IMG/VR virus record: IMGVR_UViG_3300024999_000246
Coordinates: 1 to 35,939 of that record
Length of the DNA: 35,939 nucleotides
Direction: 5' to 3' (one strand)
Origin: a virus
Shown piece after piece: positions 6,210 through 32,558 of this stretch. The notes beneath the pieces are model-generated. The model ran no database searches, was not told where the DNA came from, and was given only the letters and a program-made list of their open reading frames with translations. The translations under genes and the position numbers were made by a program. How positions within the stretch are numbered: position 1 is the first letter of the stretch; each line of letters begins with the position of its first letter.

Positions 6210-6220
6210 CATTACAGTAA

Positions 6221-6260
6221 GCAGGCGTAAGCAGGCGTAAGCAGGCGTAAGCAGGCGTAA
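6221..6260. repeat. Four perfect 10-bp iterons (gcaggcgtaa)
   Basis: The 10-base unit gcaggcgtaa occurs four times in direct tandem, preceded by a partial copy (gtaa). The period is close to one helical turn, so all copies face the same side of the DNA. It sits between a promoter and the gene for a replication-initiator-like protein, the normal place for initiator binding sites. Related, degenerate copies occur inside that gene at 6672-6720. Confidence 0.75.
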
Positions 6261-6295: not shown

Positions 6296-7690
6296 ATGTA
6301 CGGAAAGATATTCAAAAGTGTCTTCGAGGGCACGATGCGAGGCAAACGGGATGTTCTTTTGGTTTGGATGAACTTAATCGTCAATGCGGATAAAGACGGC
6401 TATATCGATAGGACGTTTAGGGTGATAGCAGACGAGACTGGGATGCCACTAGATGATGTTAAGAATGCGATCCTGGAGTTGGAATCGCCTGACACCGACT
6501 CACGGTCGCAAGAACTTGATGGACGCAGACTTGAGAGAATGGACGGGCATCGCAATTGGGGGTGGAGAATTGTCAATCATTCAAAATACAGCGCTATAAA
6601 AAATGAAGAAGATAGGCGTGAACAAAATCGAATAGCACAGGCAAAGTTAAGGGCAAAAATAGCAAGCAATAGTAAGCAGGCGTCAGCAAGCGTAAGCAAA
6701 ATAAGCCAAGCGTCAGCAGAATCAGCCTATGTAGCTGTAGCTGTAGCTGTAGACGAAAAAGAAGACAAAAAAGAAACACACTCGCGCCCGATGGTTGAAC
6801 TTGTACAAGGAGAAAAAAACCAGCAAAATCAAGGCTTTCAGGAAAATGAAAAAACGTCAGAAAGTCATAAGTCTCAATCCTTGTGTTCGACACTTAGCGA
6901 TATAAAGTTAAATGGTGGTTATGTACTTATTTATCATCCTTATCATCCAAATGCAAATTCAGAGGGGTTTGTACGAGAACATCGCCTGGTGGTAGAAAAG
7001 TCGTTGGGCAAACCAATTCCAGCAACATCAATTGTCCACCATATAGATGGGAATAAAGCCAACAATAAAACAAATAATTTGGTTTTATGCCAAGATATAG
7101 CATATCACAACCTATTGCACCAAAGACAACGCGCATTAGATGCGTGTGGTAATGCCAATTATCTGAAATGTACTTTATGTCATGAATACGATTTACCTGA
7201 AAACCTAAACAACAACGGGTATCATGATGAATGTAAAGCAATTCCAAACGAACGGGCGAAGGAAAAAAGAAAACAACTTAAAAATGCAGATAATTCGGAA
7301 ACCGAAGAAACAAAAAAGCGTCAAAAAGTAGCGGAATGGTTTTTGAAATATATCTCCATACACCCAAAGAAGACAAAAAGATTTATCGTAGAACAAATTT
7401 GGTTCGAAATGTTTTTAAATCCATCTCTGAGTGACCAAGATGCCCAAGACCTTTACACAAAGATAATAATCACCCTGAGAGTGCAAAAAGACAAACATCC
7501 GCGGGACGACACGAATTACACCTACTTCCCAGCCGCTGACGCCTGGCTACGAGATGGACGATGGATGGATGAGGTTGAAACTAAGCAGCCAGAAACCTTG
7601 CAGGAACAGGCAGACCGGATGAAAAAGAAGATGGAAGAGGATGAAGCGCAACGAAAGGAAATCTATGCGAAAGTAGGTATACAGCGATGA
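6296..7690 (+). CDS. Replication initiator-like protein with an inserted HNH endonuclease domain
   Basis: The 464-residue protein has three parts. Residues 1-110 (MYGKIFKSVFEGTMRGKRDV onward) resemble the winged-helix N-terminus of phage replisome-organiser proteins. Residues 110-200 are a low-complexity linker whose DNA contains iteron-like repeats. Residues about 205-278 are an HNH domain: REHRLVVEKSLGKP, then VHHIDGNKANNKTNNL, with H248, H249, D251 and N253 in the expected order, followed by C292, C295 and C313. Residues 340-464 return to a replication-protein-like tail (FPAADAWLRDGRWMDE). The HNH segment looks inserted in frame into the linker. The gene overlaps the next by four bases (ATGA). 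Confidence 0.75.
   Translation: MYGKIFKSVFEGTMRGKRDVLLVWMNLIVNADKDGYIDRTFRVIADETGMPLDDVKNAILELESPDTDSRSQELDGRRLERMDGHRNWGWRIVNHSKYSAIKNEEDRREQNRIAQAKLRAKIASNSKQASASVSKISQASAESAYVAVAVAVDEKEDKKETHSRPMVELVQGEKNQQNQGFQENEKTSESHKSQSLCSTLSDIKLNGGYVLIYHPYHPNANSEGFVREHRLVVEKSLGKPIPATSIVHHIDGNKANNKTNNLVLCQDIAYHNLLHQRQRALDACGNANYLKCTLCHEYDLPENLNNNGYHDECKAIPNERAKEKRKQLKNADNSETEETKKRQKVAEWFLKYISIHPKKTKRFIVEQIWFEMFLNPSLSDQDAQDLYTKIIITLRVQKDKHPRDDTNYTYFPAADAWLRDGRWMDEVETKQPETLQEQADRMKKKMEEDEAQRKEIYAKVGIQR
6672..6720. repeat. Degenerate iteron-like repeats inside the initiator gene
   Basis: Units gtaagcaggc, gtcagcaagc, gtaagcaaaa, taagccaagc and gtcagcagaa follow each other with a 10-base period and encode the Ser/Ala/Lys-rich linker. 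They match the iterons at 6221-6260 with one to four changes. Lambda-type phages place their origin inside the initiator gene, so this may be part of the origin. A separate GTAGCT hexanucleotide tandem (6731-6752) follows it. Confidence 0.55.
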
Positions 7691-8361: not shown

Positions 8362-9864
8362 ATGCTCCACGATTTACCTAACAACTTTTTTCAACTGGTT
8401 CAAAGCTTAATTCCATTTCAGCTTTACCCATATCAACTGGAAGACTTAAAGGTTGAACTCGAGGATATTCTTGAAGGGAAAGGAAATTTCTTAACTCGAG
8501 AACGCGCCAGGCAAACTGGCAAAACAATCTCTATCGCCTCAGTATCATTGGTGTGTATGATTTTAATCCATGAACTTTCTAAACTTGATTCTTTTTGTGC
8601 CAAATATCCTCATGCGAAAAATTTCAGACTTGGCTTCAACGTCGGTATCGTCGGTCCCAAAATTGATCAAGCAAGAATTACACTTAAACGACTCAAGAAA
8701 TTCGCCAGGCAAGAACCGTTCATCAAGACACTACAAAGTCTCAAGATTAAAATCACGGCTTCAAATTATGACTACTTTGAATTATCAAATGGATCATCCA
8801 TGCGAGCTTTGTCGGGTTCCCCATTATCTAACAACGAAGGTGAATCATTTCATCTTTTGGTTTTCGATGAAGCTCAAAAGTTGTCTCAATTTGCAGTTCA
8901 TAAAATGTTTGCTCCATCGGTTGCAAGTACAAATGGCACAATGTTAGCCTATGGCACCGCCTGGACATCTCAGGGACCATTTCTAAACCAAATAGAACGC
9001 AATAAAAGCAAGGCACCAGAATGTCACTCCAGTATTCCCTATAACATTGCCATGCAATATTCATCAGATTATAAATCCTGGGTACTTAAGGAGATTGAAA
9101 GAATCGGAGAATTTTCAACCGAAGTACGATTGAATCTCAAACTCGAATGGATTTTAGCATCGGGTAATGCAATGACAATAGATTTGTGGGAGGATACTGA
9201 TATGCTTGGCGACTATGATCCGGGTCAGACATCAGGGGGAACACTTCATGCCGGTGTAGATTGGGGTAAAAACGATTCATCAACAATTGTTACAATTATT
9301 GAAAAATTATCGAACCACTGTCGCTGGATTGATTTTCTTGATTTACAAGGCGATGATTATCCATCCCAGCACATCCAAATTCAAAAATTCCTTAATTCTT
9401 ACAGAACAAATTTGAAGTCGATCTGGTCGGAGTCAACCGGCATAGGTGATACAAATACTGATTTTCTCATGGGCGCATTTTCTCATTTGGTCACACCGGT
9501 TACAGCATATAATCTGTGGGTTTTGCATGACAAATTATTGTATGAATTAAAGAGCAAACGATTGATTCGTCCTCGAAGAAAAGAAAAGGGCGTTTGGTCT
9601 ATTTTATCATCTCAGATTCTCAATGTCCAAAAATCATACAAGGGGTCTTGTGTTGTGCTCAGGGCTGAAAAAGGTGAGCATGAGGATTATATTGACTCAA
9701 GTGCGCTATGTCTCGGTGGTGCCTTATCAACACCAATCGTTTCGTTTAACTTCGTATCATCAAAACTTGGAAATAGAGTCGCTCCGGTTGAAACGTCAAG
9801 AGTAATGGCATCAAATGAGAAATTTGCAAGAAAAACAACAAACAAAGTCATGTCAAGGTTTTAA
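8362..9864 (+). CDS. terL: Phage terminase large subunit
   Basis: This 500-residue protein is the ATP-driven DNA packaging motor and nuclease. LYPYQLEDL (residues 21-29) is an adenine-recognition motif, RERARQTGKT (46-55) an atypical Walker A with the usual GKT, and LLVFDEAQ (165-172) the Walker B with D169 and E170. The C-terminal RNase H-type nuclease has AGVDWGKND with D300, WSESTG with E357, and a final acidic patch EDYIDSSAL (441-449). All catalytic residues are visible and the length is normal. It has no small-terminase gene upstream; the likely one is at 14126. Confidence 0.92.
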   Translation: MLHDLPNNFFQLVQSLIPFQLYPYQLEDLKVELEDILEGKGNFLTRERARQTGKTISIASVSLVCMILIHELSKLDSFCAKYPHAKNFRLGFNVGIVGPKIDQARITLKRLKKFARQEPFIKTLQSLKIKITASNYDYFELSNGSSMRALSGSPLSNNEGESFHLLVFDEAQKLSQFAVHKMFAPSVASTNGTMLAYGTAWTSQGPFLNQIERNKSKAPECHSSIPYNIAMQYSSDYKSWVLKEIERIGEFSTEVRLNLKLEWILASGNAMTIDLWEDTDMLGDYDPGQTSGGTLHAGVDWGKNDSSTIVTIIEKLSNHCRWIDFLDLQGDDYPSQHIQIQKFLNSYRTNLKSIWSESTGIGDTNTDFLMGAFSHLVTPVTAYNLWVLHDKLLYELKSKRLIRPRRKEKGVWSILSSQILNVQKSYKGSCVVLRAEKGEHEDYIDSSALCLGGALSTPIVSFNFVSSKLGNRVAPVETSRVMASNEKFARKTTNKVMSRF

Positions 9865-9955: not shown

Positions 9956-11086
9956 ATGAGTATGGAACCAGGCCAGGAATCTAGCCAAAATGATAGTCAG
10001 AATCAAGTTACTCCAACACCAAAAATACTTCTTACCAACGAACAAATTCTCACAAAATATGATCTTGAATTACGTTCGCCGGATGAGATACTTCGGTTTG
10101 AGGGTTTTGATTATTACGACAAAATAGTGGCAAAGGATACACATCTCTATTCAATTCTCAACACTCGGAAAATGGGAGCGGCATCGTTCCCGTGGTGGCT
10201 TGAAGCAGCAAATGGATCACTCGAAGCTCTAAAGCAAAGAGATTTTTGCTTATTTGCTCTAAAGCTTATCGAAGGTGATATGAAAAATCACTTCAAAATG
10301 TTTCTCGAAGCTATACCAAAAGGATTCGCAATTTCTGAAATGGTCTTTGGTGAGTGTCTAAAAGGAATTTGGAAAGGTAAAATTATAATCTCAAAGTTCA
10401 TTCACCACAATCAAAGGCTATTCACCTTCAAAGCAAAGCCAACTACCGGCTTTGACGTATTTGCAAAAGATATTCAAACTTATAAGGATATACTTATTCC
10501 TCAAGAACGTATTGTTCATACAGTTTTTGACGGAGAACCACCTTATGGTAGGCCATTACTCGAAAAGTGTTATTTTTATGCCTGGCTTAAAAAAGAAATT
10601 GGCTTTAAATTCTGGGGAGTTTTTCTTGAACGATTCGGTGGGCCAACAGCAATTATTTATTATCCTTCATCTGATCCTGATTCAACATTACAAACACAAG
10701 CGCTTAACGCACTCAAAGACTTACAAAATGAAACAGGAATGGTGTTGCCAGATTCTTTCAAGATAGATTTTCTTAGGGTCGCACAGGGCGATATTTCTTA
10801 TCGTGACTTGATTGATTCGTGTAATGCCGAAATGACAAAGGCTGTCTTAGGTGCCACTCAAACAGTCCAGGAAGGCACGAAGGGGTCGTATAGCCTTGCC
10901 AGGGTACATGATTTAGTCCGCCATGAATACAAACTCTCCGATACGTCAATGCTTCAGAATGTAATTCAATTTCAGGTTATTAAAAGATTATGCGACCTGA
11001 ATTTTAGCGAACCGTTATATCCGGCATTTATATTTGGAGAAACCATGTCCGGGGCAGCGCCAGAAAAAGAAATGGAGGTGGTTTAA
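9956..11086 (+). CDS. Portal protein, DUF935 (Mu gp29-like)
   Basis: The 376-residue protein has signatures of the DUF935 portal family: YDKIVAKDTHLYSILNTRK near residue 60, GFAISEMVFGE (about 122-132), YGRPLLEKCYFYAWLKKEI (about 197-215) and ERFGGPTAIIYYP (about 225-237). Portal rings sit at one head vertex and form the DNA channel with terminase. It is shorter than Mu gp29 (about 510 residues), lacking much of the C-terminal part. It is followed after two bases by the ligase fusion. Confidence 0.88.
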   Translation: MSMEPGQESSQNDSQNQVTPTPKILLTNEQILTKYDLELRSPDEILRFEGFDYYDKIVAKDTHLYSILNTRKMGAASFPWWLEAANGSLEALKQRDFCLFALKLIEGDMKNHFKMFLEAIPKGFAISEMVFGECLKGIWKGKIIISKFIHHNQRLFTFKAKPTTGFDVFAKDIQTYKDILIPQERIVHTVFDGEPPYGRPLLEKCYFYAWLKKEIGFKFWGVFLERFGGPTAIIYYPSSDPDSTLQTQALNALKDLQNETGMVLPDSFKIDFLRVAQGDISYRDLIDSCNAEMTKAVLGATQTVQEGTKGSYSLARVHDLVRHEYKLSDTSMLQNVIQFQVIKRLCDLNFSEPLYPAFIFGETMSGAAPEKEMEVV

Positions 11087-11088
11087 TC

Positions 11089-12822
11089 ATGAAAATAGAA
11101 GAGATAAACTCAAAAAGTCTATCGATAATCTCAGGGAATGAGTTAACAGCATTGCATCTCAGGCTTCATCAATTATACTCAAATTTCCAAAAAGAGAATC
11201 CGGGTCAGGAGAACGAACAACTGGTAAATGCTCATATCTTCGTTGTAGAAGAAATGAAGAAAAGAAAATTCAACCACAATGACAAAGCTCCTATTGACAT
11301 GGCAAGTTTAAAAATTGAAAAACTGGCTGAGTATGCACCTGTTATATCAGATAAATCCGGAGATTCTCAGGAAAAGAAGATCACTTGGGATTCTATCAAA
11401 GAGTACCTTAAATCATCCTTCATCATTTCCAAAAACGCCATATCATTGGTTGGAGGCATCGCTTGTAATGAAGCCGGTGGCAATGATATTGATATCTTGA
11501 TCAAACTTCCATCAGAAGAACAGCTCTTCAACATTATCTCATTTCGATTATACCGCATGCTCCCACCCGACTTACGCCATCGCATCCATATTTTCAAGTC
11601 AAAGGACGACGGACCATTTACAAACCATTACAATATTGGTGATCTCCAAATTGTCGTCAATCCTGAACCTGTAATTGTCAAGATGCAAGAGAGTCAGTCA
11701 GAAGAGAAGAAAAAGACAAGTCTTGAGGCTGAAGAATCTGCAAAAGAGAATCGTATTATTCCTGGGCGATTCTTTAAACCAATGAAGCCAACCAAAGCCC
11801 ACACCGAAGGTCAACGTCAAACAATGGAAGTTTTCTTAGATCAGTTCAAGGATGAAGATTTCCCAGTATATTCTTCGGCCAAAAGAGATGGAGTTCGCGG
11901 CGTCATCCATAAACTCAAGGATCGGGTATGGATTTTTACAGAAGATGGGTCTGACATCACAGATAAATTACCAACGTTGGTGGATGTTGCAAAAGGTCTG
12001 TCCTATGATTCCATAGTTTTGGATTGTGAACTTGAATTGTGGCCGGTGCAAGGCACAGAGCGTGTACACTGGCCGCGGGAGGAAATGTCGGCCAGACTCC
12101 TATTAAATACACCAGATGATAAAGACGTATTTGCACAATGTTTTGCAATCCTCTATTTTAATGGCAAGGATTATCACAATGAAAAATATGATGAAATCTA
12201 TAAACTCATGGAAAAGGTCAACAAAGACAACGAGGGTAATATCAGATTTGGCTCAGATGGATTCCCAACTCTAAGGATTTCTATGATTCCTCATACGCCA
12301 GATGCGAATAAAGAAGGGTTAAAAGCCACAACCGAAAGGCTGGGTAAAATCCCGTTCTCGGAGGGCAATGTAGCTAAAATGGCAGGTTCAGTATACAATT
12401 TAGAGGGGATTCGGTCAGGATGGGTTAAGTTCAGAATCAACTCTACATTAACTGCAAAAGTCCTGGAAGAGATCAAAACAAGCACGCCAGGTATCGCTAA
12501 TCTAGAACTTGGTATTTTATTAAATGAGGAACTTGTTCCAGTTGGAAAATCATTCAACGTAAAATCAGAGATGTATGCGAAAGGCCAACTCGTTAGGGTT
12601 GAGTATGAAACATTTATTCACCAAATTGATGAAACAGGAAAAAGCGAAAACAGTCTACCAAAGGAATCTTTTTCACTCTGGGCACCCAGAGTATTGTCCG
12701 AAGATGTTATAAATGGTACACAAATTTCAAATACCAAAGAATTGATTCAATCAGCCATAAAAGATCGTGTCTACCAACAGAAGGTCATTTCAAACGCAGG
12801 AAAATCATTTTATATTGCATAA
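11089..12822 (+). CDS. Nucleotidyltransferase-ATP-dependent DNA ligase fusion protein
   Basis: The 577-residue protein has three parts. Residues 15-65 form a helical domain (LHLRLHQLY, FVVEEMKKRK). Residues 97-195 are a minimal Pol-beta-type nucleotidyltransferase: SLVGGIACN, GNDIDILIK with D133 and D135, and NIGDLQIVV supplying the third Asp, D185. Residues 225-577 are an ATP-dependent ligase: motif I KRDGVR with adenylation lysine K265, motif III LDCELELW (E314), IIIa CFAILYFNGKD, motif IV SEGNVAK (E425, K430), motif V SGWVKFR (K447), then a C-terminal OB-like region. All key residues are present in both catalytic domains. Only a few bases separate it from the portal gene. Polymerase or end-processing activity of the first domain is inferred. 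Confidence 0.85.
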   Translation: MKIEEINSKSLSIISGNELTALHLRLHQLYSNFQKENPGQENEQLVNAHIFVVEEMKKRKFNHNDKAPIDMASLKIEKLAEYAPVISDKSGDSQEKKITWDSIKEYLKSSFIISKNAISLVGGIACNEAGGNDIDILIKLPSEEQLFNIISFRLYRMLPPDLRHRIHIFKSKDDGPFTNHYNIGDLQIVVNPEPVIVKMQESQSEEKKKTSLEAEESAKENRIIPGRFFKPMKPTKAHTEGQRQTMEVFLDQFKDEDFPVYSSAKRDGVRGVIHKLKDRVWIFTEDGSDITDKLPTLVDVAKGLSYDSIVLDCELELWPVQGTERVHWPREEMSARLLLNTPDDKDVFAQCFAILYFNGKDYHNEKYDEIYKLMEKVNKDNEGNIRFGSDGFPTLRISMIPHTPDANKEGLKATTERLGKIPFSEGNVAKMAGSVYNLEGIRSGWVKFRINSTLTAKVLEEIKTSTPGIANLELGILLNEELVPVGKSFNVKSEMYAKGQLVRVEYETFIHQIDETGKSENSLPKESFSLWAPRVLSEDVINGTQISNTKELIQSAIKDRVYQQKVISNAGKSFYIA

Positions 12823-12825
12823 TTC

Positions 12826-12914
12826 GGGAGTAGCAAACTCCCATGATGCGGCCAATGCGAAAGGCGGTGCCGGGCACTCAAAACTGCTCGGCACCGCTGA
12901 GTAACATTGGCCGC
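12826..12914 (+). ncRNA. Structured RNA element between ligase and phosphoesterase-like genes
   Basis: A small hairpin (GGGAG 12826-12830 / CTCCC 12838-12842) is followed by a two-stem structure. Stem 1 is a perfect 10-bp pair, GCGGCCAATG (12848-12857) with CATTGGCCGC (12905-12914). Stem 2 is GCGGTGCCG (12864-12872) with CGGCACCGC (12889-12897), extended by GGCA/TGCT around the loop ctcaaaac. The internal loop is CGAAAG opposite TGAGTAA, which contains the AGUA/GAA pairing of a bulged-G (loop E) motif. There is no T tract, so it is not a simple terminator. It is GC-rich in AT-rich surroundings and ends 21 bases before the next ATG. Confidence 0.6.
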
Positions 12915-12935: not shown

Positions 12936-14129
12936 ATGAGCGCGTTCGAAGAATATCCTCCAAAGAATCTCGACACTAAGTTTGTTGTTCACGCCCATTT
13001 CAGAAAAGAGACTTCTGTTCATTTAGATATACGCATTCAATACAATGAAGCCTCTCTTATTGGATATACGTTAACAAATCCTTTCAGCGTGGAAAGGCCA
13101 TTTGAATCTTTTTCGAATGCAAAGAAGATCATTGAGGAGAAACGTCCCTCTCTTGAAAAAAGGATAGCGAATCCAAACGACAAGTTTCTCGCAATTCCAA
13201 AAGAAGTTCAGCCAGCAGTATGGCTTAAGGTTGAGGGGGAAGTCAGGGAGGGGGAGATCGGAGCAACACATTTTGGAAAAGGCGCTTTTGTTATCGTTGA
13301 TTCGGGTTCAGTAGAATTCGGAAGATTGTCAACGTTTTTCCGGGAATATTGGTTTCATGGCAAACTTTTTAATGGCCGTTTCGTTGCTCGTCTTGTTCCA
13401 AATTCATCAATTGACAATCCAGATGTCGAGGGTGGATCGTCAAAGACCTCGCTTATGTGGTTGTTTTGGAAGACCAAGGATCAAGATCCATTCGTGTTGT
13501 CAAAGCGTGCTATCACTCAAGGCTATATTCCACCGTATGATGTGTCTGCAATGCCGAAGTCACTCACAGCAGAAATCCCATCCAAGCTCCGCTTCTGGCA
13601 TAGTAAGAATAAGTTCAAAAGAATTGCCATACGAAGCGCTCTGGTTGAATCAGGTATCATCAAACTTGAAGAACCATCATTGTCAGTCGCTGATATGACG
13701 ACAGAAACTCCAGATGAGAAAGGAGCGTTCTCAATAATCGTCCAATCATTCAAAGGTCAATTTGTAATACGGTTTGGACCGTCGCGTACAATTTTCCATT
13801 TATTCTTGTCCCCGGATGAAAAAGAAAGTTCAAGGCACTTCGTAACAATAACTGATCCAGTCAAAACATCTGATGTCATCGCATTTGTTCAATATAATAA
13901 TGTCAAAAAAATACTTTCTAAAGGTATTGTTCCACGTGGAACATATTTTAACACAACAAAGGACACCGACTCATTCGCAGAGCCACTGGCAAATGGTAAA
14001 TATGAAATGTGGAGGACTGAATTAGGGTATAGCTTTTTACAGTTCGCTTCTAACAAATTCTCGGGTGTTTTTAAGCTTAGACATGAAACAAAAGATTCCG
14101 ATATCATTCTCCTGGAACCAGTAATATGA
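12936..14129 (+). CDS. LigD-type 3'-phosphoesterase-like protein
   Basis: I choose ATG 12936 (aagga ten bases upstream); an in-frame ATG at 12843 lies inside the RNA structure and would add 31 unlikely residues. The N-terminal domain (16-155) follows the LigD phosphoesterase pattern: FVVHAHF, then VHLDIR (H29, D31, R33), then KVEGEVREGEIGA, a VDSG turn, and WFHGKLFNGRFVARLV, which matches the family's final strands. The His that LigD carries just before the EG...EG segment is not evident, so activity is uncertain. Residues 264-397 look like a second, degenerate copy (GKYEMWR, SGVFKLRHE). Family members remove 3' phosphate or ribonucleotide groups before ligation. Its neighbour is the ligase. 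Confidence 0.7.
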   Translation: MSAFEEYPPKNLDTKFVVHAHFRKETSVHLDIRIQYNEASLIGYTLTNPFSVERPFESFSNAKKIIEEKRPSLEKRIANPNDKFLAIPKEVQPAVWLKVEGEVREGEIGATHFGKGAFVIVDSGSVEFGRLSTFFREYWFHGKLFNGRFVARLVPNSSIDNPDVEGGSSKTSLMWLFWKTKDQDPFVLSKRAITQGYIPPYDVSAMPKSLTAEIPSKLRFWHSKNKFKRIAIRSALVESGIIKLEEPSLSVADMTTETPDEKGAFSIIVQSFKGQFVIRFGPSRTIFHLFLSPDEKESSRHFVTITDPVKTSDVIAFVQYNNVKKILSKGIVPRGTYFNTTKDTDSFAEPLANGKYEMWRTELGYSFLQFASNKFSGVFKLRHETKDSDIILLEPVI

Positions 14130-14500
14130 AAAAGATTAACTATCCACCAGAAGTTATTGAACAGGCCAAAAGCCAATATTTACAGGGAATTCCCATTCGC
14201 CAAATAGCTGAAAATTTGGGTATGTCCCGGTTCACAACAATTTGTCGCTGGGTAAAACAATTTTCATGGGTTAGGAAAAATTCTGATGAAACAGTGGCAA
14301 TTATTGATGAACAAAGTGAAATTGTAGGGGGAATCCTTAAACAGTTTAAACCATTGGTACAGGCTATTGACTTTAGCGCTCTTGAAGAAAGACAAATGAT
14401 AAATATCTATCTAAAATTGTTATCGCATCAGTTAAAATTAACAAAGGCTAAGTCACCAACCCAAACAACAGCCACCGAATCTATTTTTCAGTTTGAATGA
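14126..14500 (+). CDS. Probable terminase small subunit (HTH protein)
   Basis: The 124-residue protein overlaps the previous stop (ATGA). Residues 22-48 are a clear helix-turn-helix (PIRQIAENLGMSRFTTICRW), followed by W and a helical C-terminal half. This is the usual form of phage small terminase subunits, which bind the pac or cos site and hand DNA to the large subunit. An HTH regulator is the alternative. The gene lies 4.3 kb downstream of the large subunit, an unusual order. Confidence 0.55.
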   Translation: MKKINYPPEVIEQAKSQYLQGIPIRQIAENLGMSRFTTICRWVKQFSWVRKNSDETVAIIDEQSEIVGGILKQFKPLVQAIDFSALEERQMINIYLKLLSHQLKLTKAKSPTQTTATESIFQFE

Positions 14501-14599: not shown

Positions 14600-15892
14600 A
14601 TGAACAAGTCAAAAAAGTCCGATAAAATTACAAATGGCTATCAGTACCCCTATCCATACCCCAATAATAAGGTGAACGATTATCCAAATGTCTCTGTAGA
14701 TTATCCGCATAATGCCCCGGTTCGATTCAAAATGAATGAAACTGCCAAACCAGCTTATCCTTACCCGGACATGCCTGACGTGACTGATGCGGCTGTTAGC
14801 TCAGTTATATCGTTATGTTCTAAAGCCGACCTCTGTCCAATTATGGCACTTGATGATTTTCCAGATAATTTCCTCGAAATCGCTCAAGGGTGCAACACGG
14901 CCAAAAGTCAAGGCTGTCCATTATTCTTAAAATGCTTTTCTGATAAATCTTCATTTGTAGATATCGGATGGCAGGAAATTTTTGAGGTTGATGATGAAAA
15001 GGTACTCGATGTCGTGATAAACAATTTTAATGCAGTCAAGGGTCTAGTTCCACCAATCGTTCTTGGGCATGATGAGGGGCAAGCAATGCTCCAGGCTTCC
15101 GGGTATCCATCAGCCGGATGGGTAACTGACTTAAAGCGGAAAGAAGCCTCAAATGTTCTTTTGGCTAAGTTCTCACGAGTTCCCCCTGAAATTGTCAAAT
15201 TGATTGAGTCTAAGTCGTATTCAAAAGTTTCTGCTGAACTTTATGTCGATTATATTGATGCCGCTGGAAAACATTATGGGCCAACATTGCGCCGCGTCGC
15301 AATTTTAGGAGCCGATGTCCCACATATTAAGTCACTTGCTGATTTATGTGTTATTTACAACACTGAAGATTTACCTACAAAGACATTTTTAATGGAGGAT
15401 AACATGGAGTTAAAGAAAGCACTCGAAGAATTGAAGGCTAAAGAGGAAAGCATTATTAAGTTACAGGAGGATTCAAAGATTACCACTCAAAAGGTTCTTG
15501 AATTATCAGAATCACTGACAATGGCAAACCAAAAACTCGCTCTTGCAAGCGCTGCAATTTTGTCAACTCAAAAGGATCGCATATTGGGTGAACTAAATTC
15601 AAAATTTACGCCTGCCGTCGTAGAAGGGTTATCAAAATTGTTGACCTTTACCGAAGACGATACTGTATTGAAAGTCGTCAAACTTTTTGAAGTTCACTTG
15701 GCTGATGGTTCTCTTATCAAACCATTGCAGGGTTCACCGGTAGTTGCCGCACAACCAATATCCGCATCACCAACTTCAGGCGATCCTATTGCAGGTTTAC
15801 ATGGCAAGATTATAGCCTTTGCAGAGGAAAAGAAAATCACCTATGAAGATGCGTATAATACAATGTCCAAGCAGGGATTGATTCGTATCTAA
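14600..15892 (+). CDS. Head maturation protease, Mu gpI-like, with C-terminal scaffold
   Basis: The 430-residue protein matches the Mu I protease/scaffold family from about residue 120: VDIGWQEIF, then PPIVLGHDEG with H157, SGYPSAGWVTDL, and SYSKVSAELYVDY with S211, the expected catalytic His and Ser. Residues 270-330 are a coiled coil typical of the scaffold part. The first 115 residues are extra: a YPYP-rich start and five cysteines (73, 79, 98, 106, 112), not part of the protease core as I know it. It processes the prohead. The gene precedes decoration and capsid genes as in Mu. Confidence 0.85.
   Translation: MNKSKKSDKITNGYQYPYPYPNNKVNDYPNVSVDYPHNAPVRFKMNETAKPAYPYPDMPDVTDAAVSSVISLCSKADLCPIMALDDFPDNFLEIAQGCNTAKSQGCPLFLKCFSDKSSFVDIGWQEIFEVDDEKVLDVVINNFNAVKGLVPPIVLGHDEGQAMLQASGYPSAGWVTDLKRKEASNVLLAKFSRVPPEIVKLIESKSYSKVSAELYVDYIDAAGKHYGPTLRRVAILGADVPHIKSLADLCVIYNTEDLPTKTFLMEDNMELKKALEELKAKEESIIKLQEDSKITTQKVLELSESLTMANQKLALASAAILSTQKDRILGELNSKFTPAVVEGLSKLLTFTEDDTVLKVVKLFEVHLADGSLIKPLQGSPVVAAQPISASPTSGDPIAGLHGKIIAFAEEKKITYEDAYNTMSKQGLIRI
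15404..15892 (+). CDS. Nested scaffold protein from an internal start
   Basis: Inside the protease gene, a strong site (tggagg at 15393-15398) lies five bases before the in-frame ATG at 15404, codon 269. The product (MELKKALEELKAKEES onward, 162 residues) is exactly the coiled-coil scaffold half. Mu makes its scaffold Z in the same way from the 3' part of gene I. The evidence is the internal ribosome site and the precise domain boundary. Confidence 0.65.
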   Translation: MELKKALEELKAKEESIIKLQEDSKITTQKVLELSESLTMANQKLALASAAILSTQKDRILGELNSKFTPAVVEGLSKLLTFTEDDTVLKVVKLFEVHLADGSLIKPLQGSPVVAAQPISASPTSGDPIAGLHGKIIAFAEEKKITYEDAYNTMSKQGLIRI

Positions 15893-16393: not shown

Positions 16394-17350
16394 ATGGGGT
16401 TTATCGCAACGTCAGATATTCCAAAGACGAATGCCATTCTTAACGAATTGGCCATTCAGTTCCCAAATAGTGGTTTTGTGGCTGAACAAGTTTGTCCGAT
16501 CGTTAATGTCGGAGAAGAAAACGAGTCAGGCAATTATTATGAATTCGATAAGGCCAACTTGAATTCAAACATCGAAGACATCAGGGCTATGGGTGCCAGG
16601 GCAAACAGTCCTGAACCGTGGACTCAAACAATTCGGTCTTACTTCGCTAAAGAACATGCTCTTGAGCTACCAATAGACCGACGGGAATTCAAGCAGTATA
16701 AAAATAGGGAAATGGATTTAGGCAAGTCGGTGACAGAGTTCCTTCTCAGTTTGCAGTTAACGAATTTTGAAAAGAGAGTGGCAACGTTGCTAACAACAAC
16801 GGCAAATTACGCTTCGTCGTCGTATTACTCAACGTTATCAGGCACTTCACAGTGGTCAGATTTTGTTAATTCCGATCCAGAGGCGGCTATTGAAACAGCA
16901 AGAGAACAAGTCGCGCTCAATGGCGCAGAACCAAATGTCATTCTTATGTCTGCTTCCACTTGGAGAAAGGTACGGCAACACCCTCAAATTCGTGCGCTTA
17001 TCAAAACGACTGATTCGAAGCTTTTGACAGACGAATTAATGCCACCATCTCTGTTCGGTCTTTCGCTCGTTGTTGCAGGTGCAAGAAATGTTACAAGTCT
17101 TCCAGGTGCCTCGGAAACGATTGCCAGAATATGGAGTGATTATGTTTGGATTGGAGCGGTTAACAAAAGGCCAAACCCAACCAAGAGAGAACTTTCTTTC
17201 GCTTATACCATCCAGGCTAAGGGACGTACGGTTGAAACGTATGTTGATGAGGCTAGGAAAAGTGAGGTAGTTCGGGTCACTCATTCAATCTCAGACGAAA
17301 AAGTTGTTTGTAATACCGCTGGCTATCTGTATTCTGATGTTCTGGCTTAA
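16394..17350 (+). CDS. Major capsid protein
   Basis: The 318-residue product has the content and position of a phage major capsid protein: after decoration and protease, with a perfect aggagg site. It contains QFPNSGFVAEQVCPIVNVGE near residue 20, a long helix (YKNREMDLGKSVTEFLLSL, about 105-123), DPEAAIETAREQVALNGAEP, and PNVILMSASTWRKVRQHPQI (about 176-195), phrases seen in Mu-T-like and related capsid proteins. Its HK97-type fold is inferred from the family. Confidence 0.82.
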   Translation: MGFIATSDIPKTNAILNELAIQFPNSGFVAEQVCPIVNVGEENESGNYYEFDKANLNSNIEDIRAMGARANSPEPWTQTIRSYFAKEHALELPIDRREFKQYKNREMDLGKSVTEFLLSLQLTNFEKRVATLLTTTANYASSSYYSTLSGTSQWSDFVNSDPEAAIETAREQVALNGAEPNVILMSASTWRKVRQHPQIRALIKTTDSKLLTDELMPPSLFGLSLVVAGARNVTSLPGASETIARIWSDYVWIGAVNKRPNPTKRELSFAYTIQAKGRTVETYVDEARKSEVVRVTHSISDEKVVCNTAGYLYSDVLA

Positions 17351-22925: not shown

Positions 22926-23031
22926 CCGTTCCGAGCACAAGCCCAGTCGCACGTTTTAAGTTAAGTGGGAGTCCAGCCGGATCGACCGCTTGACACGCGC
23001 GCGAGGGGGCGCGCTATGACGTATGTGCTTC
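22926..23031. other. Non-coding link between repeat arrays
   Basis: No gene is visible. There is a short GC hairpin (CGCGC repeats around 22997-23014) just after a TTGACA, but the spacing to the next TATGAC is 19 bases, so I do not call a promoter. Confidence 0.3.
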
Positions 23032-23064
23032 AAGGAAGTCATAAAGACTTAAAGGAATCTTTTA
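23032..23064 (+). repeat. R element 1
   Basis: Sequence aaggaagtcataaag then acttaaaggaatctttta. It belongs to a family of about 36-base elements with consensus AAGGAA-N(2-3)-ATAA-(n)-ACTTAAAGGAA-(A/T)n, repeated at 23192, 23323, 23456, 23625 and 26995. This copy is not followed by ATG. Confidence 0.6.
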
Positions 23065-23170
23065 TCGTATAATTATATTTGGTTCAAACATTTCATCAAG
23101 TCTTCAATCATCATTCCCAATCTTAGCCGTGCTTGAAGCAGGGCGGGTAGTCTTCACGGGACTCCACTCA

Positions 23171-23239
23171 CAGCCTAAAGCCACTATATTTAGGAAGTCA
23201 ATAAAGACTTAAAGGAATCTTTTTTATGGCTTTAGGCTG
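23171..23239 (+). repeat. R element 2 in the loop of a perfect 13-bp inverted repeat
   Basis: The element (23192-23226) contains AGGAAGTCA, ATAAAGACTTAAAGGAA and a T run. It lies in the loop between CAGCCTAAAGCCA (23171-23183) and TGGCTTTAGGCTG (23227-23239), which are exact complements. An ATG (23226-23228) straddles the loop and the right arm, and a 32-codon frame runs from it to a stop at the next element. The geometry resembles a hairpin with its ribosome site in the loop. Confidence 0.65.
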
Positions 23240-23307
23240 TTTCGTTCCCCTGTCTTGGCCCGTTAACCGCCCTGCTTCAACGGGGAGAATCCCCCGCGCC
23301 CCCTCGC

Positions 23308-23364
23308 AGGCCACCTTACATTAAGGAAATAGATAAAAACTTAAAGGAATATTATTTATGGCCT
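23308..23364 (+). repeat. R element 3 with short flanking inverted repeat
   Basis: AAGGAAATAGATAAAAAC then TTAAAGGAATATTATTTATG (23323-23360), flanked by AGGCCA (23308-23313) and TGGCCT (23359-23364), with imperfect pairing beyond. ATG at 23358 opens a 38-codon frame that stops inside R element 4. Confidence 0.55.
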
Positions 23365-23455
23365 CTGGGGAGATTCCCCAGACCCCTTTTCATTTCCCGT
23401 TCAGCGCTACTCGCGCCAGGTTAACGCAAGTGCAAAGTTTATTGAACGCTATTTA

Positions 23456-23490
23456 TCAGATCATAACAACTTAAAGGTATTTTATTTATG
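23456..23490 (+). repeat. R element 4
   Basis: TCAGATCATAACAAC then TTAAAGGTATTTTATTTATG. The ATG opens only ten codons. Clear flanking arms are not visible here. Confidence 0.5.
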
Positions 23491-23594
23491 GTCAGTTGCT
23501 ATAGTTTTTTGGCAATTTAAGCCCCACAATGATTCCACTTAAGGTGCGCTCAGGCCGCGCAGGCCACACACTATCTGAATTATACAAGCTAATC

Positions 23595-23691
23595 GCATCT
23601 AACTTATTCTAAGAAAGGCTGTTTAAGGAATTGATAACAACTTAAAGGAAAATATATTTATCTACAGCCTTCCTAAGAATAAGTAAGATGC
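23595..23691 (+). repeat. R element 5 in the loop of a 28-bp inverted repeat
   Basis: The arms at 23595-23622 and 23664-23691 are 28 bases each and pair with three mismatches (left arm begins GCATCTAACTTATTCT). The loop holds AAGGAATTGATAACAAC and TTAAAGGAAAATATATTTAT. No ATG follows. The right arm ends three bases before the next hairpin begins. Confidence 0.65.
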
Positions 23692-23693
23692 TA

Positions 23694-23804
23694 TTTTTAG
23701 AAGCAATAAAAAAATAAAAAATATTTTTAAAGGAAGTTGTTTTTTTTGAGAAGCGAAAAATATTCTTTTATTTCAAGCCCTTCGGGTTTTATTGCTTCTA
23801 AAAA
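23694..23804 (+). repeat. 18-bp inverted repeat with degenerate R element
   Basis: TTTTTAGAAGCAATAAAA (23694-23711) and its exact complement (23787-23804) enclose TTTTTAAAGGAAGTTG and a T8 run. Just before the right arm lies GCCC-TTC-GGG followed by TTTT, a small terminator-like hairpin. It is contiguous with R element 5. Confidence 0.6.
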
Positions 23805-30185: not shown

Positions 30186-32558
30186 ATGAAGAAATGGCTT
30201 TTGTATTGTGCTACTCTGTATGCCCTCGTAGTGATTCCTTCTCTCGTTTTCGGCCAAACGCCGATTGCTTCTACGCGAGTAAATGAGGCATTAAAGGCAC
30301 AGTTGGACTCAGATGGGAAATGGCTTTCGATTTTATTTTCAGACGGTTCCTCCCAGTCTACCGCTGGCGGCTCCGTAACTTCCGTGTCTGTCACGACCGC
30401 AAATGGCGTTTCCGGTAGCGTGTCGAATCCTACGACTACGCCAGCGATAAGCCTGGTCTTGGGCGCGATAACACCAAGCTCGGTCAATGCCGTGGTGTTG
30501 TCCGGATCGTCATTACCAAATTTAACTGTTACTGGTACTGCTTCGGTGTCCGGTGCAAATACAGGCGATCAAACAAACATTACAGGTAATGCGGCGACAG
30601 TTACGACAAACGCAAACCTGACCGGACATGTAACCTCAACGGGTAATGCTGCTGTTTTGGGTTCTTTTTCTTCGGCAAATTTAGCAGGTGCTTTATCTGA
30701 TGAAACCGGTAGCGGCGCGGCGGTATTTGGCACTGCCCCGACTATCCAGAATGTCTCGCTTACTGGAACTTTTAAGGGTGTTACGGGATATCCGCTTATC
30801 CAGCCAATCACAAGTGATAGACGAAGATTTATCGAAAATTCTGACGGGATAGGTTCCTCTGCATGGGCGTATAACACCCCCCAGCAATCATCAGCTATAA
30901 CGGGAACGAGGACAAGCGATACAATATTTACAAGAAGTTCTGGAACATGGACTATTAATGCTCTTGTAGGACAATATGTCTTCAGTTTTGCTACGGGTGT
31001 CCCTGCAACGGGTGTATGGCTACCGATTACGGCCAATACCACGACGACTCTTACGGTTTCTGGCACTTTAAATGCGACAGGAACATCAGTTTATACGTCC
31101 CCATGGAGTCCTATTGCCGCAACCTATGCACATGGTCAAGGCGCAACTGCATTTGTTGGTGGCGTCTTTGACGGGGAATCAATTTGGTTGATTCCTCTCG
31201 CCTCTGCAAACTTGGTTAAAGTCAATCCTGCTACGGGAGTAATGACAACCTATGCACATGGTCAAGGCGCAACTGCATTTATTGGTGGCGTCTTTGACGG
31301 GGAATCAGTTTGGTTGATTCCTCTCGCCTCTGCAAACCTGGTTAAAGTCAATCCGGCTACGGGAGCAATGACAACCTACGCACATGGTCAAGGCTCAACT
31401 GCATTTGCAGGTGGCGTCTTTGACGGGGGATCAGTTTGGCTAGTTCCCAATAATTCTGCAAACCTGGTTAAAGTCAATCCGGCTACGGGAGCAATGACAA
31501 CCTATGCACATGGGCAAAGCGCGGAGGCATTTGCAGGTGGCGTCTTTGACGGGGAATCAATTTGGTTGATTCCTCGGGGCTCTGCGAACCTGGTTAAAGT
31601 CAATCCGGCTACGGGAGCAATGACAACCTACGCACATGGTCAAGGCTCACTTGTATTTTCAGGTGGCGTCTTTGACGGGGAATCAGTTTGGTTGATTCCG
31701 TATAATTCTGCAAACTTGGTTAAAGTCAATCCTGCTACGGGAGTAATGACAACCTATGCACATGGTCAAGGCGCAACTGCATTTTACGGTGGCATCTTTG
31801 ACGGGGAATCAGTTTGGCTAGTTCCCAATAATTCTGCAAACCTGGTTAAAGTCAATCCTGCTACGGGAGTAATGACAACCTATGCACATGGTCAAGGCGC
31901 AACTGCATTTGCAGGTGGCGTCTTTGACGGGGGATCAGTTTGGCTAGTTCCCAATAATTCTGCAAACTTGGTTAAAGTCAATCCGCCGCGTTCTGGCCGC
32001 GGAGTGACTACCGGAAATCGCAATTTTGCTGGTAATCTTTTGGTTGCTGGCACAATAACAGCATCAATGGGATATAAATTCTCGGATGGGTCAAGCATCA
32101 CGTCCGGCAAAGAGCCCTTTATCCAGCTTTCTGATTCCACAAACCAAGAGCCTGGCGTGACAACCCCCGTTTTAGTCACATTTGACACTCAAGACGCAAT
32201 TGAGGGGATGTCGCATAGCGGCGGGACGATAACGGCGCATAGGGCTGGAGTATACTGTATTATTGCGGCAGGGCAAGTGGGGAAGACACAGGGTGCGACC
32301 GATATAAAATATGATATGTGGCTAAAAAAGAATACTACTTATATCGCGAACAGTGGTGTTAGGAATACTATCTTAACTGCAAGCGATACTAAAGTCGTTG
32401 TACAAAATACAGGCATTCGGCTATCCGCGGGTGACACGATAAATGTATATCATAGCATTGACACGACTGGAGATGGTGCAGGATTGAAAGTTTACAACCC
32501 AGCAGGAGAGCCGCGTATTCCATCAATTATTTTGACTATGTACAGGATTGGCGATTAA
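30186..32558 (+). CDS. Secreted fibre-like protein: seven 42-residue propeller repeats plus C1q/TNF-like domain
   Basis: Start ATG 30186 after aaagggg. Residues 1-23 are a signal peptide. Residues about 60-310 are Thr/Ser/Val-rich and fibre-like (NITGNAATVTTNANLTGHVT). Residues about 313-600 are seven near-identical 42-residue units (TYAHGQ, GGVFDGESIWLIP, SANLVKVNPATG), the right number for a seven-bladed propeller. Residues about 645-790 read as a C1q/TNF-like jelly roll (LVTFDTQDAIEG, RAGVYCIIAAGQ, IRLSAGDTINVYHSID, ending SIILTMYRIGD). The architecture suits carbohydrate or receptor binding. A signal peptide argues for export through the host membrane rather than simple virion assembly. 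Confidence 0.75.
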   Translation: MKKWLLYCATLYALVVIPSLVFGQTPIASTRVNEALKAQLDSDGKWLSILFSDGSSQSTAGGSVTSVSVTTANGVSGSVSNPTTTPAISLVLGAITPSSVNAVVLSGSSLPNLTVTGTASVSGANTGDQTNITGNAATVTTNANLTGHVTSTGNAAVLGSFSSANLAGALSDETGSGAAVFGTAPTIQNVSLTGTFKGVTGYPLIQPITSDRRRFIENSDGIGSSAWAYNTPQQSSAITGTRTSDTIFTRSSGTWTINALVGQYVFSFATGVPATGVWLPITANTTTTLTVSGTLNATGTSVYTSPWSPIAATYAHGQGATAFVGGVFDGESIWLIPLASANLVKVNPATGVMTTYAHGQGATAFIGGVFDGESVWLIPLASANLVKVNPATGAMTTYAHGQGSTAFAGGVFDGGSVWLVPNNSANLVKVNPATGAMTTYAHGQSAEAFAGGVFDGESIWLIPRGSANLVKVNPATGAMTTYAHGQGSLVFSGGVFDGESVWLIPYNSANLVKVNPATGVMTTYAHGQGATAFYGGIFDGESVWLVPNNSANLVKVNPATGVMTTYAHGQGATAFAGGVFDGGSVWLVPNNSANLVKVNPPRSGRGVTTGNRNFAGNLLVAGTITASMGYKFSDGSSITSGKEPFIQLSDSTNQEPGVTTPVLVTFDTQDAIEGMSHSGGTITAHRAGVYCIIAAGQVGKTQGATDIKYDMWLKKNTTYIANSGVRNTILTASDTKVVVQNTGIRLSAGDTINVYHSIDTTGDGAGLKVYNPAGEPRIPSIILTMYRIGD
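31122..31985 (+). repeat. Seven tandem 126-bp coding repeats
   Basis: Units begin at 31122, 31248, 31374, 31500, 31626, 31752 and 31878, exactly 126 bases apart, with acctaYgcacatggtcaa at each start. The last unit is cut short at its end. Differences cluster at few positions (VGG/IGG/AGG, LAS/NNS), so copies are young or kept uniform by recombination. Confidence 0.85.

Follow-up and report, generated by a model that had tools for sequence, protein, structure and literature searches.

The systems closest to the locus described here are bacterial LigD and the archaeal NHEJ sets of phosphoesterase and ligase, in which an ATP-dependent ligase, a 3'-phosphoesterase of the LigD fold and a nucleotide-adding domain occur either fused or split. 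LigD has a primase-type (AEP) polymerase (PMC8656161). Viral end joining that circularises the incoming genome has been described for mycobacteriophages Omega and Corndog, which encode Ku and use it with LigD (PMC3706429); in Omega-type mycobacteriophages circularisation is NHEJ-dependent, and packaging of Ku was suggested and went undetected. The polyvalent phage proteins (Iyer et al. 2017, PMC5512222) are multi-enzyme polypeptides encoded in head operons; they are processed by zincin proteases, and packaging followed by injection is predicted for them. In the text of that paper ligases appear only as RNA ligases, and Pol-beta nucleotidyltransferases (NTases) are placed in conjugative elements only. 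Jumbo phages are known to combine a Pol-beta NTase with a nucleic-acid ligase, namely RlaP with RNA ligases (PMC7824862).

The window, i.e. the whole stretch analysed (35,939 nucleotides, IMG/VR virus record IMGVR_UViG_3300024999_000246), encodes an NTase-DNA ligase fusion followed by a predicted LigD-type phosphoesterase. The NTase of this module is of the Pol-beta type, whereas the polymerase of LigD belongs to the AEP primases; also unlike LigD, the module is without His84 and Tyr88, no Ku was seen, and its place is in head operons of viruses, where it is often accompanied by protease-like, metallo-beta-lactamase-fold (MBL-fold) or methyltransferase domains. Omega and Corndog contribute Ku, whereas in the present case it is the enzymes for end processing and ligation that the virus encodes. 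The arrangement of several enzymes in one polypeptide of a head operon is shared with the polyvalent proteins, but these are processed by zincins and not by S78-like domains. The module differs from the RlaP pairs in that its ligase is a DNA ligase and its healing enzyme a predicted LigD-type phosphoesterase. A direct homologue is AJP62006 of ANMV-1, a virus of anaerobic methanotrophic archaea, but this is one polypeptide of 866 aa in place of the two genes of the window; the term 'DNA ligase' is absent from the full text of the original ANMV-1 paper (PMC4372165). No earlier description of an NTase-ligase-phosphoesterase module was found in the literature searched; the RNA-repair survey of Burroughs and Aravind (2016) was outside that literature and could mention related pairs. 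A summary of the features is shown in Table 1.

Table 1. Features of the module and of the surrounding head operon, in window coordinates
Feature	Position	Strand	Basis and remarks
Terminase large subunit	8362..9864	+	phrog_2 1.2e-18
Portal protein	9956..11086	+	Portal_Mu 2.3e-59; phrog_113 1e-58
NTase-DNA ligase fusion gene	11089..12822	+	577 aa, ATG; ORF list, RBS, Pfam/NCBIfam ligase matches, ANMV-1 homologue 6e-34
N-terminal helical region, residues 1-62	11089..11274	+	AF2 helices 16-36 and 43-58; no family assigned
Pol-beta-superfamily NTase domain, residues 110-192 (by profile)	11416..11664	+	HMM domain map, 18-member alignment, profile comparisons, PDB profile search
NTase acids D133, D135 (NDIDI)	11485..11493	+	invariant 18/18
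Third NTase acid D185 (GDLQI)	11641..11643	+	same-column D in 8/18
ATP-dependent DNA ligase, adenylation and OB domain, residues 226-555	11764..12753	+	Pfam, HMM domain map, fold, motifs
Ligase motif I K265 (KRDG), predicted AMP acceptor	11881..11883	+	invariant 16/16
Ligase E314	12028..12030	+	invariant 16/16
Ligase motif IV E425...K430 (EGNVAK)	12361..12378	+	invariant 16/16
Ligase motif V K447	12427..12429	+	invariant 16/16
Two predicted intergenic hairpins, ligase stop to phosphoesterase start	12826-12842, 12848-12914	+	folding energy
Predicted LigD-type phosphoesterase gene	12936..14129	+	ORF open from 12843; 12936 likelier start; start region
Predicted 3'-phosphoesterase domain 1, ORF residues 44-213	12972..13481	+	fold match 3p43; conserved residues
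Second, degenerate phosphoesterase-like domain	13710..14126	+	family profile positions 340-445 vs 3p43, E=9e-4
HTH protein, possible small terminase	14126..14500	+	Terminase_5 7e-6; phrog_4151 DNA binding protein 7e-7
Head maturation protease	14600..15892	+	phrog_976 5e-19
Probable major capsid protein	16394..17350	+	phmmer 2e-107 to L007 ORF 11472-12410; synteny only

The ligase and nucleotidyltransferase fusion

The fusion gene begins two bases past the portal stop and is preceded by a strong RBS (GGAGGTGG). By family and fold, the C-terminal two thirds of the 577-aa product are an ATP-dependent DNA ligase. Pfam DNA_ligase_A_M matched with E=3.4e-13 (50.2 bits, cut-off 26.2) and NCBIfam dnl1 with 2.3e-12, while residues 202-565 of the AlphaFold2 model matched the adenylation and OB domains of human LIG1 (VIA Z 25.6, 3.6 A, 316 residues). 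K265, E314, E425, K430 and K447, listed as ligase motifs in the initial annotation, are unchanged in all 16 related ligase sequences aligned (median pairwise identity 29%). The gene product is confirmed by these sequence and model comparisons as a complete ATP-dependent DNA ligase, for which nick sealing is predicted, and the ligase homology of its C-terminal half, on which the initial annotation had relied, is present. Matches of the window protein in Pfam, NCBIfam and the fold search were solely to DNA ligase families and structures, with no RNA-ligase-type domain. At the other end of the protein, several relatives resemble residues 1-62 in stretches of the kind 'LHxxLHxxx...H..V..EM.RR'.

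Residues 110-192, which contain VGGIACNEAGGNDIDILIK, are by profile comparison a Pol-beta-superfamily NTase, with membership above chance. As a single sequence the domain matched NTP_transf_2 at merely 0.0088. The profile built from 18 members scored 29.9 against the family X palm and 27.7 against the minimal NTases of PF01909, to be compared with maxima of 17.4 and 17.6, respectively, for 60 column-shuffled decoys and with 12-14 for unrelated families. Searched against the PDB, the same profile found family X polymerases in 60 of 60 of the matches listed (terminal transferase, Pol beta, Pol lambda and ASFV Pol X among them), with a best E of 0.075. In view of this weak E and of the roughly equal scores of minimal NTases, the narrower assignment to family X was dropped and the domain is left at superfamily level. 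None of the profile searches assigned residues 97-195 to a non-catalytic structural fold. The AF2 model of the region shows alternating strands and helices; the fold-search list was filled by the ligase domain.

In the 18-member alignment the DxD of D133 and D135 is preceded by a GG or GS pair throughout. The third acid occupies the column of D185 in 8 members, lies two residues later in 4 more and is absent from 6; the window protein possesses all three acids, as had been claimed for a full NTase site. End extension, as put forward in the initial annotation, would depend on a domain that in 6 of the 18 relatives is without this acid, so that nucleotide addition by the window protein is rated as no more than plausible. 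It is distinctly unlikely that the NTase is not a polymerase at all and nucleotidylates a protein or regulates the ligase, with repair left to the phosphoesterase and the ligase. The presence of just the NTase core of about 100 residues, the loss of the third acid and the ability of minimal NTases to target proteins (PMC5512222) would suit such a role, but the NTase invariably stands on the N-terminal side of the ligase or in the gene immediately preceding it, and the PDB profile matches listed are family X polymerases only.

The ORF, the Pfam matches, the LIG1 fold and the NTase profile scores together bear out the reading of the gene as a head-operon fusion of a Pol-beta-type NTase with an ATP-dependent DNA ligase. 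Its difference from LigD, also stated at the outset, stands as well: the LigD polymerase is an AEP (PMC8656161), and no Pfam match to an AEP-type polymerase domain was obtained in the proteins of the window, of ANMV-1 or among the further relatives' proteins scanned.

The adjacent phosphoesterase gene

The initial annotation described the fusion as a one-piece enzyme. This description was abandoned: the adjacent gene supplies a predicted LigD-type 3'-phosphoesterase, and in ANMV-1 all three activities would lie in a single polypeptide. The product of 12936-14129 is homologous to the C-terminal half of AJP62006 (2e-40), and low pLDDT before M32 in the predicted structure of the ORF favours the start at 12936. 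The predicted structure of domain 1 matched the archaeal LigD phosphoesterase PDB 3p43 with Z 15.3 (1.9 A, 122/124 residues) and the P. aeruginosa LigD phosphoesterase with Z 12.6-12.8, the next unrelated rows having Z <=4.8. Sequence-level matches of the window protein to LigD phosphoesterases are weak (Pfam 0.018, NCBIfam TIGR02777 0.0014), and a single-sequence PDB search with the phosphoesterase gave no match, so that profile and fold were needed for its recognition.

According to the HMM alignment, H52, H60, D62 and R64 correspond to the metal residues His42, His48 and Asp50 and to Arg52 of LigD, and they are kept in 14 of the 14 relatives aligned. The columns of His84 and Tyr88 contain E/Q and W instead in the same 14 relatives; both of these phosphate-pocket residues are required in P. 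aeruginosa LigD, from which the residue roles are taken (PMC8656161). Because of this replacement the specificity of the phosphoesterase may differ from that of LigD. The second domain is without catalytic histidines and is read as a degenerate phosphoesterase because the sequence profile supports this. Its structural neighbours Mediator Med18 and TTM1 (Z <5) were treated as a common barrel arrangement. On profile and model evidence, then, 12936-14129 encodes a LigD-type 3'-phosphoesterase of predicted activity and a degenerate second copy of it.

The identity of the two genes bears on whether they could serve RNA or tRNA repair that counters host RNases, like the RlaP NTase and RNA ligase pairs of jumbo phages. 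RlaP, a Pol-beta NTase, acts beside RNA ligases (PMC7824862), the likeness of the present NTase to minimal NTases about equals that to family X, and the phosphoesterase could heal RNA 3' ends. The ligase, however, is DNA-ligase-like in family and fold, and the RNA_ligase model gave a weak match only to the extra ligase domain of one relative (L005, 2e-4), which makes an RNA substrate very unlikely. As the main reading, RlaP-type repair was ruled out by the DNA-repair type of ligase and phosphoesterase.

The two hairpins predicted between the genes (12826-12914) have an MFE of -59.6 kcal/mol (z=-6.87), and 0 of 200 shuffles were as stable. They sit exactly where other viruses have a continuous ligase-phosphoesterase fusion.

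Conservation and head-operon setting of the module

Together with the window and ANMV-1, the sources added by scans of IMG/VR and of genome contigs bring the module to 18 distinct viral sources (the window, ANMV-1, L005, L006, L007, L009, L011, L012, L015-L022, L025 and L033), with the NTase and the phosphoesterase in 18 and the ligase in 17. The order NTase-ligase-phosphoesterase is unchanging, in one, two or three reading frames and sometimes with other domains interposed. L019 has kept the NTase and the phosphoesterase, and no ligase was found anywhere in its 89-kb record. Each record otherwise has one ligase locus, which is that of the module. AJP62006 of ANMV-1 lies directly 3' of the portal and comprises NTase, ligase and both phosphoesterase-like domains; it is annotated merely as 'ATP-dependent DNA ligase'. 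Its neighbour AJP62005 (L002:1913-3193), annotated as 'MutT-like phage hydrolase', is actually a portal (Phage_portal_3, 3e-22). In the ligase tree the window pairs with L007 (100/99), and ANMV-1 groups with L009, L025 and L033, a contig of a Euryarchaeota MAG. Phage and plasmid collections contained no full homologue besides ANMV-1. The genome-contig scan yielded two contigs, one of 3.7 kb from a Euryarchaeota MAG and one from a spirochaete MAG, the latter 99.9% identical to viral contig L018; an earlier scan had yielded none. Ku was not found in the 14 records searched, which may be fragments and whose hosts could provide Ku; Ku-dependent NHEJ was rejected on this result.

A portal or MuF gene stands directly 5' of the module in 14 of the 18 sources (the window, ANMV-1, L005, L006, L007, L011, L015, L016, L017, L018, L020, L021, L022 and L025; in L022 about 1 kb before it). 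These portals span several families: Portal_Mu, Phage_portal_3, phrog_12/2662, phrog_10963, phrog_2739 and the L006 type. The portal of L009 is on the opposite strand, 2.4 kb off, the preceding ORF of L012 and L019 has no match, and the module of L033 begins right at the edge of its contig. A protease gene follows 3' of the module in the window, L006, L007, L009, L015-L018 and L020. The HTH gene of the window overlaps the phosphoesterase stop by 4 nt, and the L007 ORF matched by the probable capsid gene comes after the protease of L007. The fusion gene had been placed between portal and small terminase. This is correct for the portal upstream and for the Terminase_5 match downstream, but the intervening phosphoesterase gene had been missed, and a position described as unusual for a DNA repair gene is no isolated case, being conserved in many viruses with unrelated portals.

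Were the enzyme an ordinary viral replication or repair ligase that had come to lie in the head operon by genome mosaicism, it would fit that the module is the sole ligase locus per record and that stand-alone phage ligases occur elsewhere in genomes (phi3LM21). Such an origin is improbable in view of the portal or MuF adjacency in 14 sources with unrelated portals, the head-protein domain fusions and the constant linkage of phosphoesterase and NTase.

Further domains are added in several relatives: an MBL-fold domain in L007, L012, L017 and L020-L022, D12 methyltransferases in L017, L020 and L021, and a DpdA-like domain in L011 (6e-4) and L019 (0.024). Several different enzymatic domains share one polypeptide within the head operon in L005, L011, L012, L017 and L020-L022. 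The polypeptides of L005, L011 and L019 end in a domain with conserved H and S that matches a separate ORF of L012 (1.7e-6) and, weakly, the S78 prohead proteases of L016/L018 (0.006); PHROG and Pfam did not recognise it, and the matches, being weak, suggest a protease fusion. The L006/L015 members of the S78-like protease family are PF04586 at 2e-15. The phosphoesterase ORF of L007 holds a weak MuF-like insert (E=0.0098).

Some individual loci have additional features. L005:4542-10286 encodes 1914 aa with two ligase domains, the NTase, a phosphoesterase split by a degenerate MBL-like stretch and the protease-like C-terminus. In L011:4920-9950 and L019:4791-6722 the DpdA-like (7-deazaguanine transglycosylase) domain is fused to or adjoins the module, and the ORF after L019:4791-6722 starts with a weak C5-methylase match. 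The large terminase ORF L006:1695-4220 (841 aa) has an apparent intein, an insert ending in VIGHN by eye.

Elsewhere in the window, a 1.3-kb non-coding stretch includes five copies of a conserved core (ACTTAAAGGAATNTTTT...) at 23030-23700, against which no Rfam family matched. The core has 6 matches in the window versus 0.38 expected. Several copies lie between unrelated inverted repeats, e.g. 23170-23183/23227-23240 (100%) and 23591-23622/23664-23695 (88%), as if hairpins had a common loop and differing stems. A 126-bp tandem repeat (31120-31985, 6.9 copies) lies within an ORF of 800 aa that matches DUF6923 and, weakly, an M23 peptidase. A 10-bp repeat, GTAAGCAGGC (6217-6260, 4.4 copies), is located just 5' of the HNH gene 6296-7690, the C-terminal part of which resembles replication initiation proteins.

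Proposed function

We propose that the module is a DNA healing-and-sealing enzyme, made with the head and acting on the virus's own genome, most likely carried in the particle for repair or circularisation of the incoming genome; we give this proposal, built on sequence and structural models, an even chance of being right. The phosphoesterase half would strip blocking 3'-phosphates or 3'-terminal nucleotides and leave 3'-OH ends, the Pol-beta-type NTase would add one or a few nucleotides, and the ligase would then close the nick or the joined ends. The overall logic would follow bacterial LigD, except that a Pol-beta NTase replaces the polymerase of primase type and that, as far as could be seen, Ku is absent. 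The enzymes would be produced alongside the head proteins, with the viral genome itself as target; they would most likely ride in the particle and leave it together with the genome, which would allow immediate repair or circularisation of incoming ends that are damaged, nicked or cohesive.

Viral DNA at packaging or entry is argued to be the target because the head-operon position is constant across unrelated portals, although by itself such a location is no proof of packaging. The use on packaged or injected genome ends suggested in the initial annotation would fit this setting. We favour transport within the particle and an effect on the genome as it enters, since in relatives the same polypeptide also includes DNA-modifying enzymes and domains that resemble head proteins. 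Presence in the virion, viral DNA ends as the substrate, the predicted activities and their timing are inferred. Counted in favour were the completeness of the ligase, the LigD metal residues, the triple fusion of ANMV-1, the co-occurrence in 18 sources and the portal adjacency. The protease-like C-terminus of L005, L011 and L019 and the MuF-like insert of L007 were counted likewise, as were methyltransferases, DpdA-like and MBL-fold domains, which would be expected of genome-protection cargo, and the precedents of mycobacteriophage NHEJ circularisation and head-carried polyvalent proteins. Counted against it were the replacement of His84 and Tyr88, the loss of the third NTase acid in 6 of 18, L019 without a ligase and the 14 records without Ku.

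The main rival places the action during packaging and not after injection: near the portal, repair of nicks and gaps in replicated DNA would prevent stalling of the motor. The module adjoins portal and terminase genes, and nicks and gaps block translocation of short DNA by T4 gp17 (PMC3012670). Packaging-time action would, however, leave unexplained the methyltransferase and DpdA-like domains of the same polypeptides, which suit protection of the incoming genome, and it is considered unlikely.

An extended form of the proposal, for which the prospects are rather doubtful, is that head-tailed viruses of archaea and bacteria carry in their virions an end-joining machine that works independently of Ku. 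It would be made in the prohead, set free by the protease there and expelled along with the genome, which it would heal, join and shield at entry, some lineages having added an MBL-fold domain and DNA-modifying enzymes. If true, an NHEJ-like toolkit would have been assembled independently around a Pol-beta NTase, comparable to the family X polymerases that serve eukaryotes.

To our knowledge, the protection and joining of linear viral genomes right after entry are poorly known beyond a handful of model phages, and for viruses whose archaeal hosts are uncultured next to nothing is known. Conserved genes for a ligase and for 3'-end healing in head operons would make the question of repair at entry testable. 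The present analysis gives a meaning to the ANMV-1 protein annotated only as a ligase and corrects the supposed hydrolase of that virus to a portal. With the module, DNA repair would be added to the functions predicted for head-carried enzymes, and a LigD-like tool with a polymerase from another family would become available.
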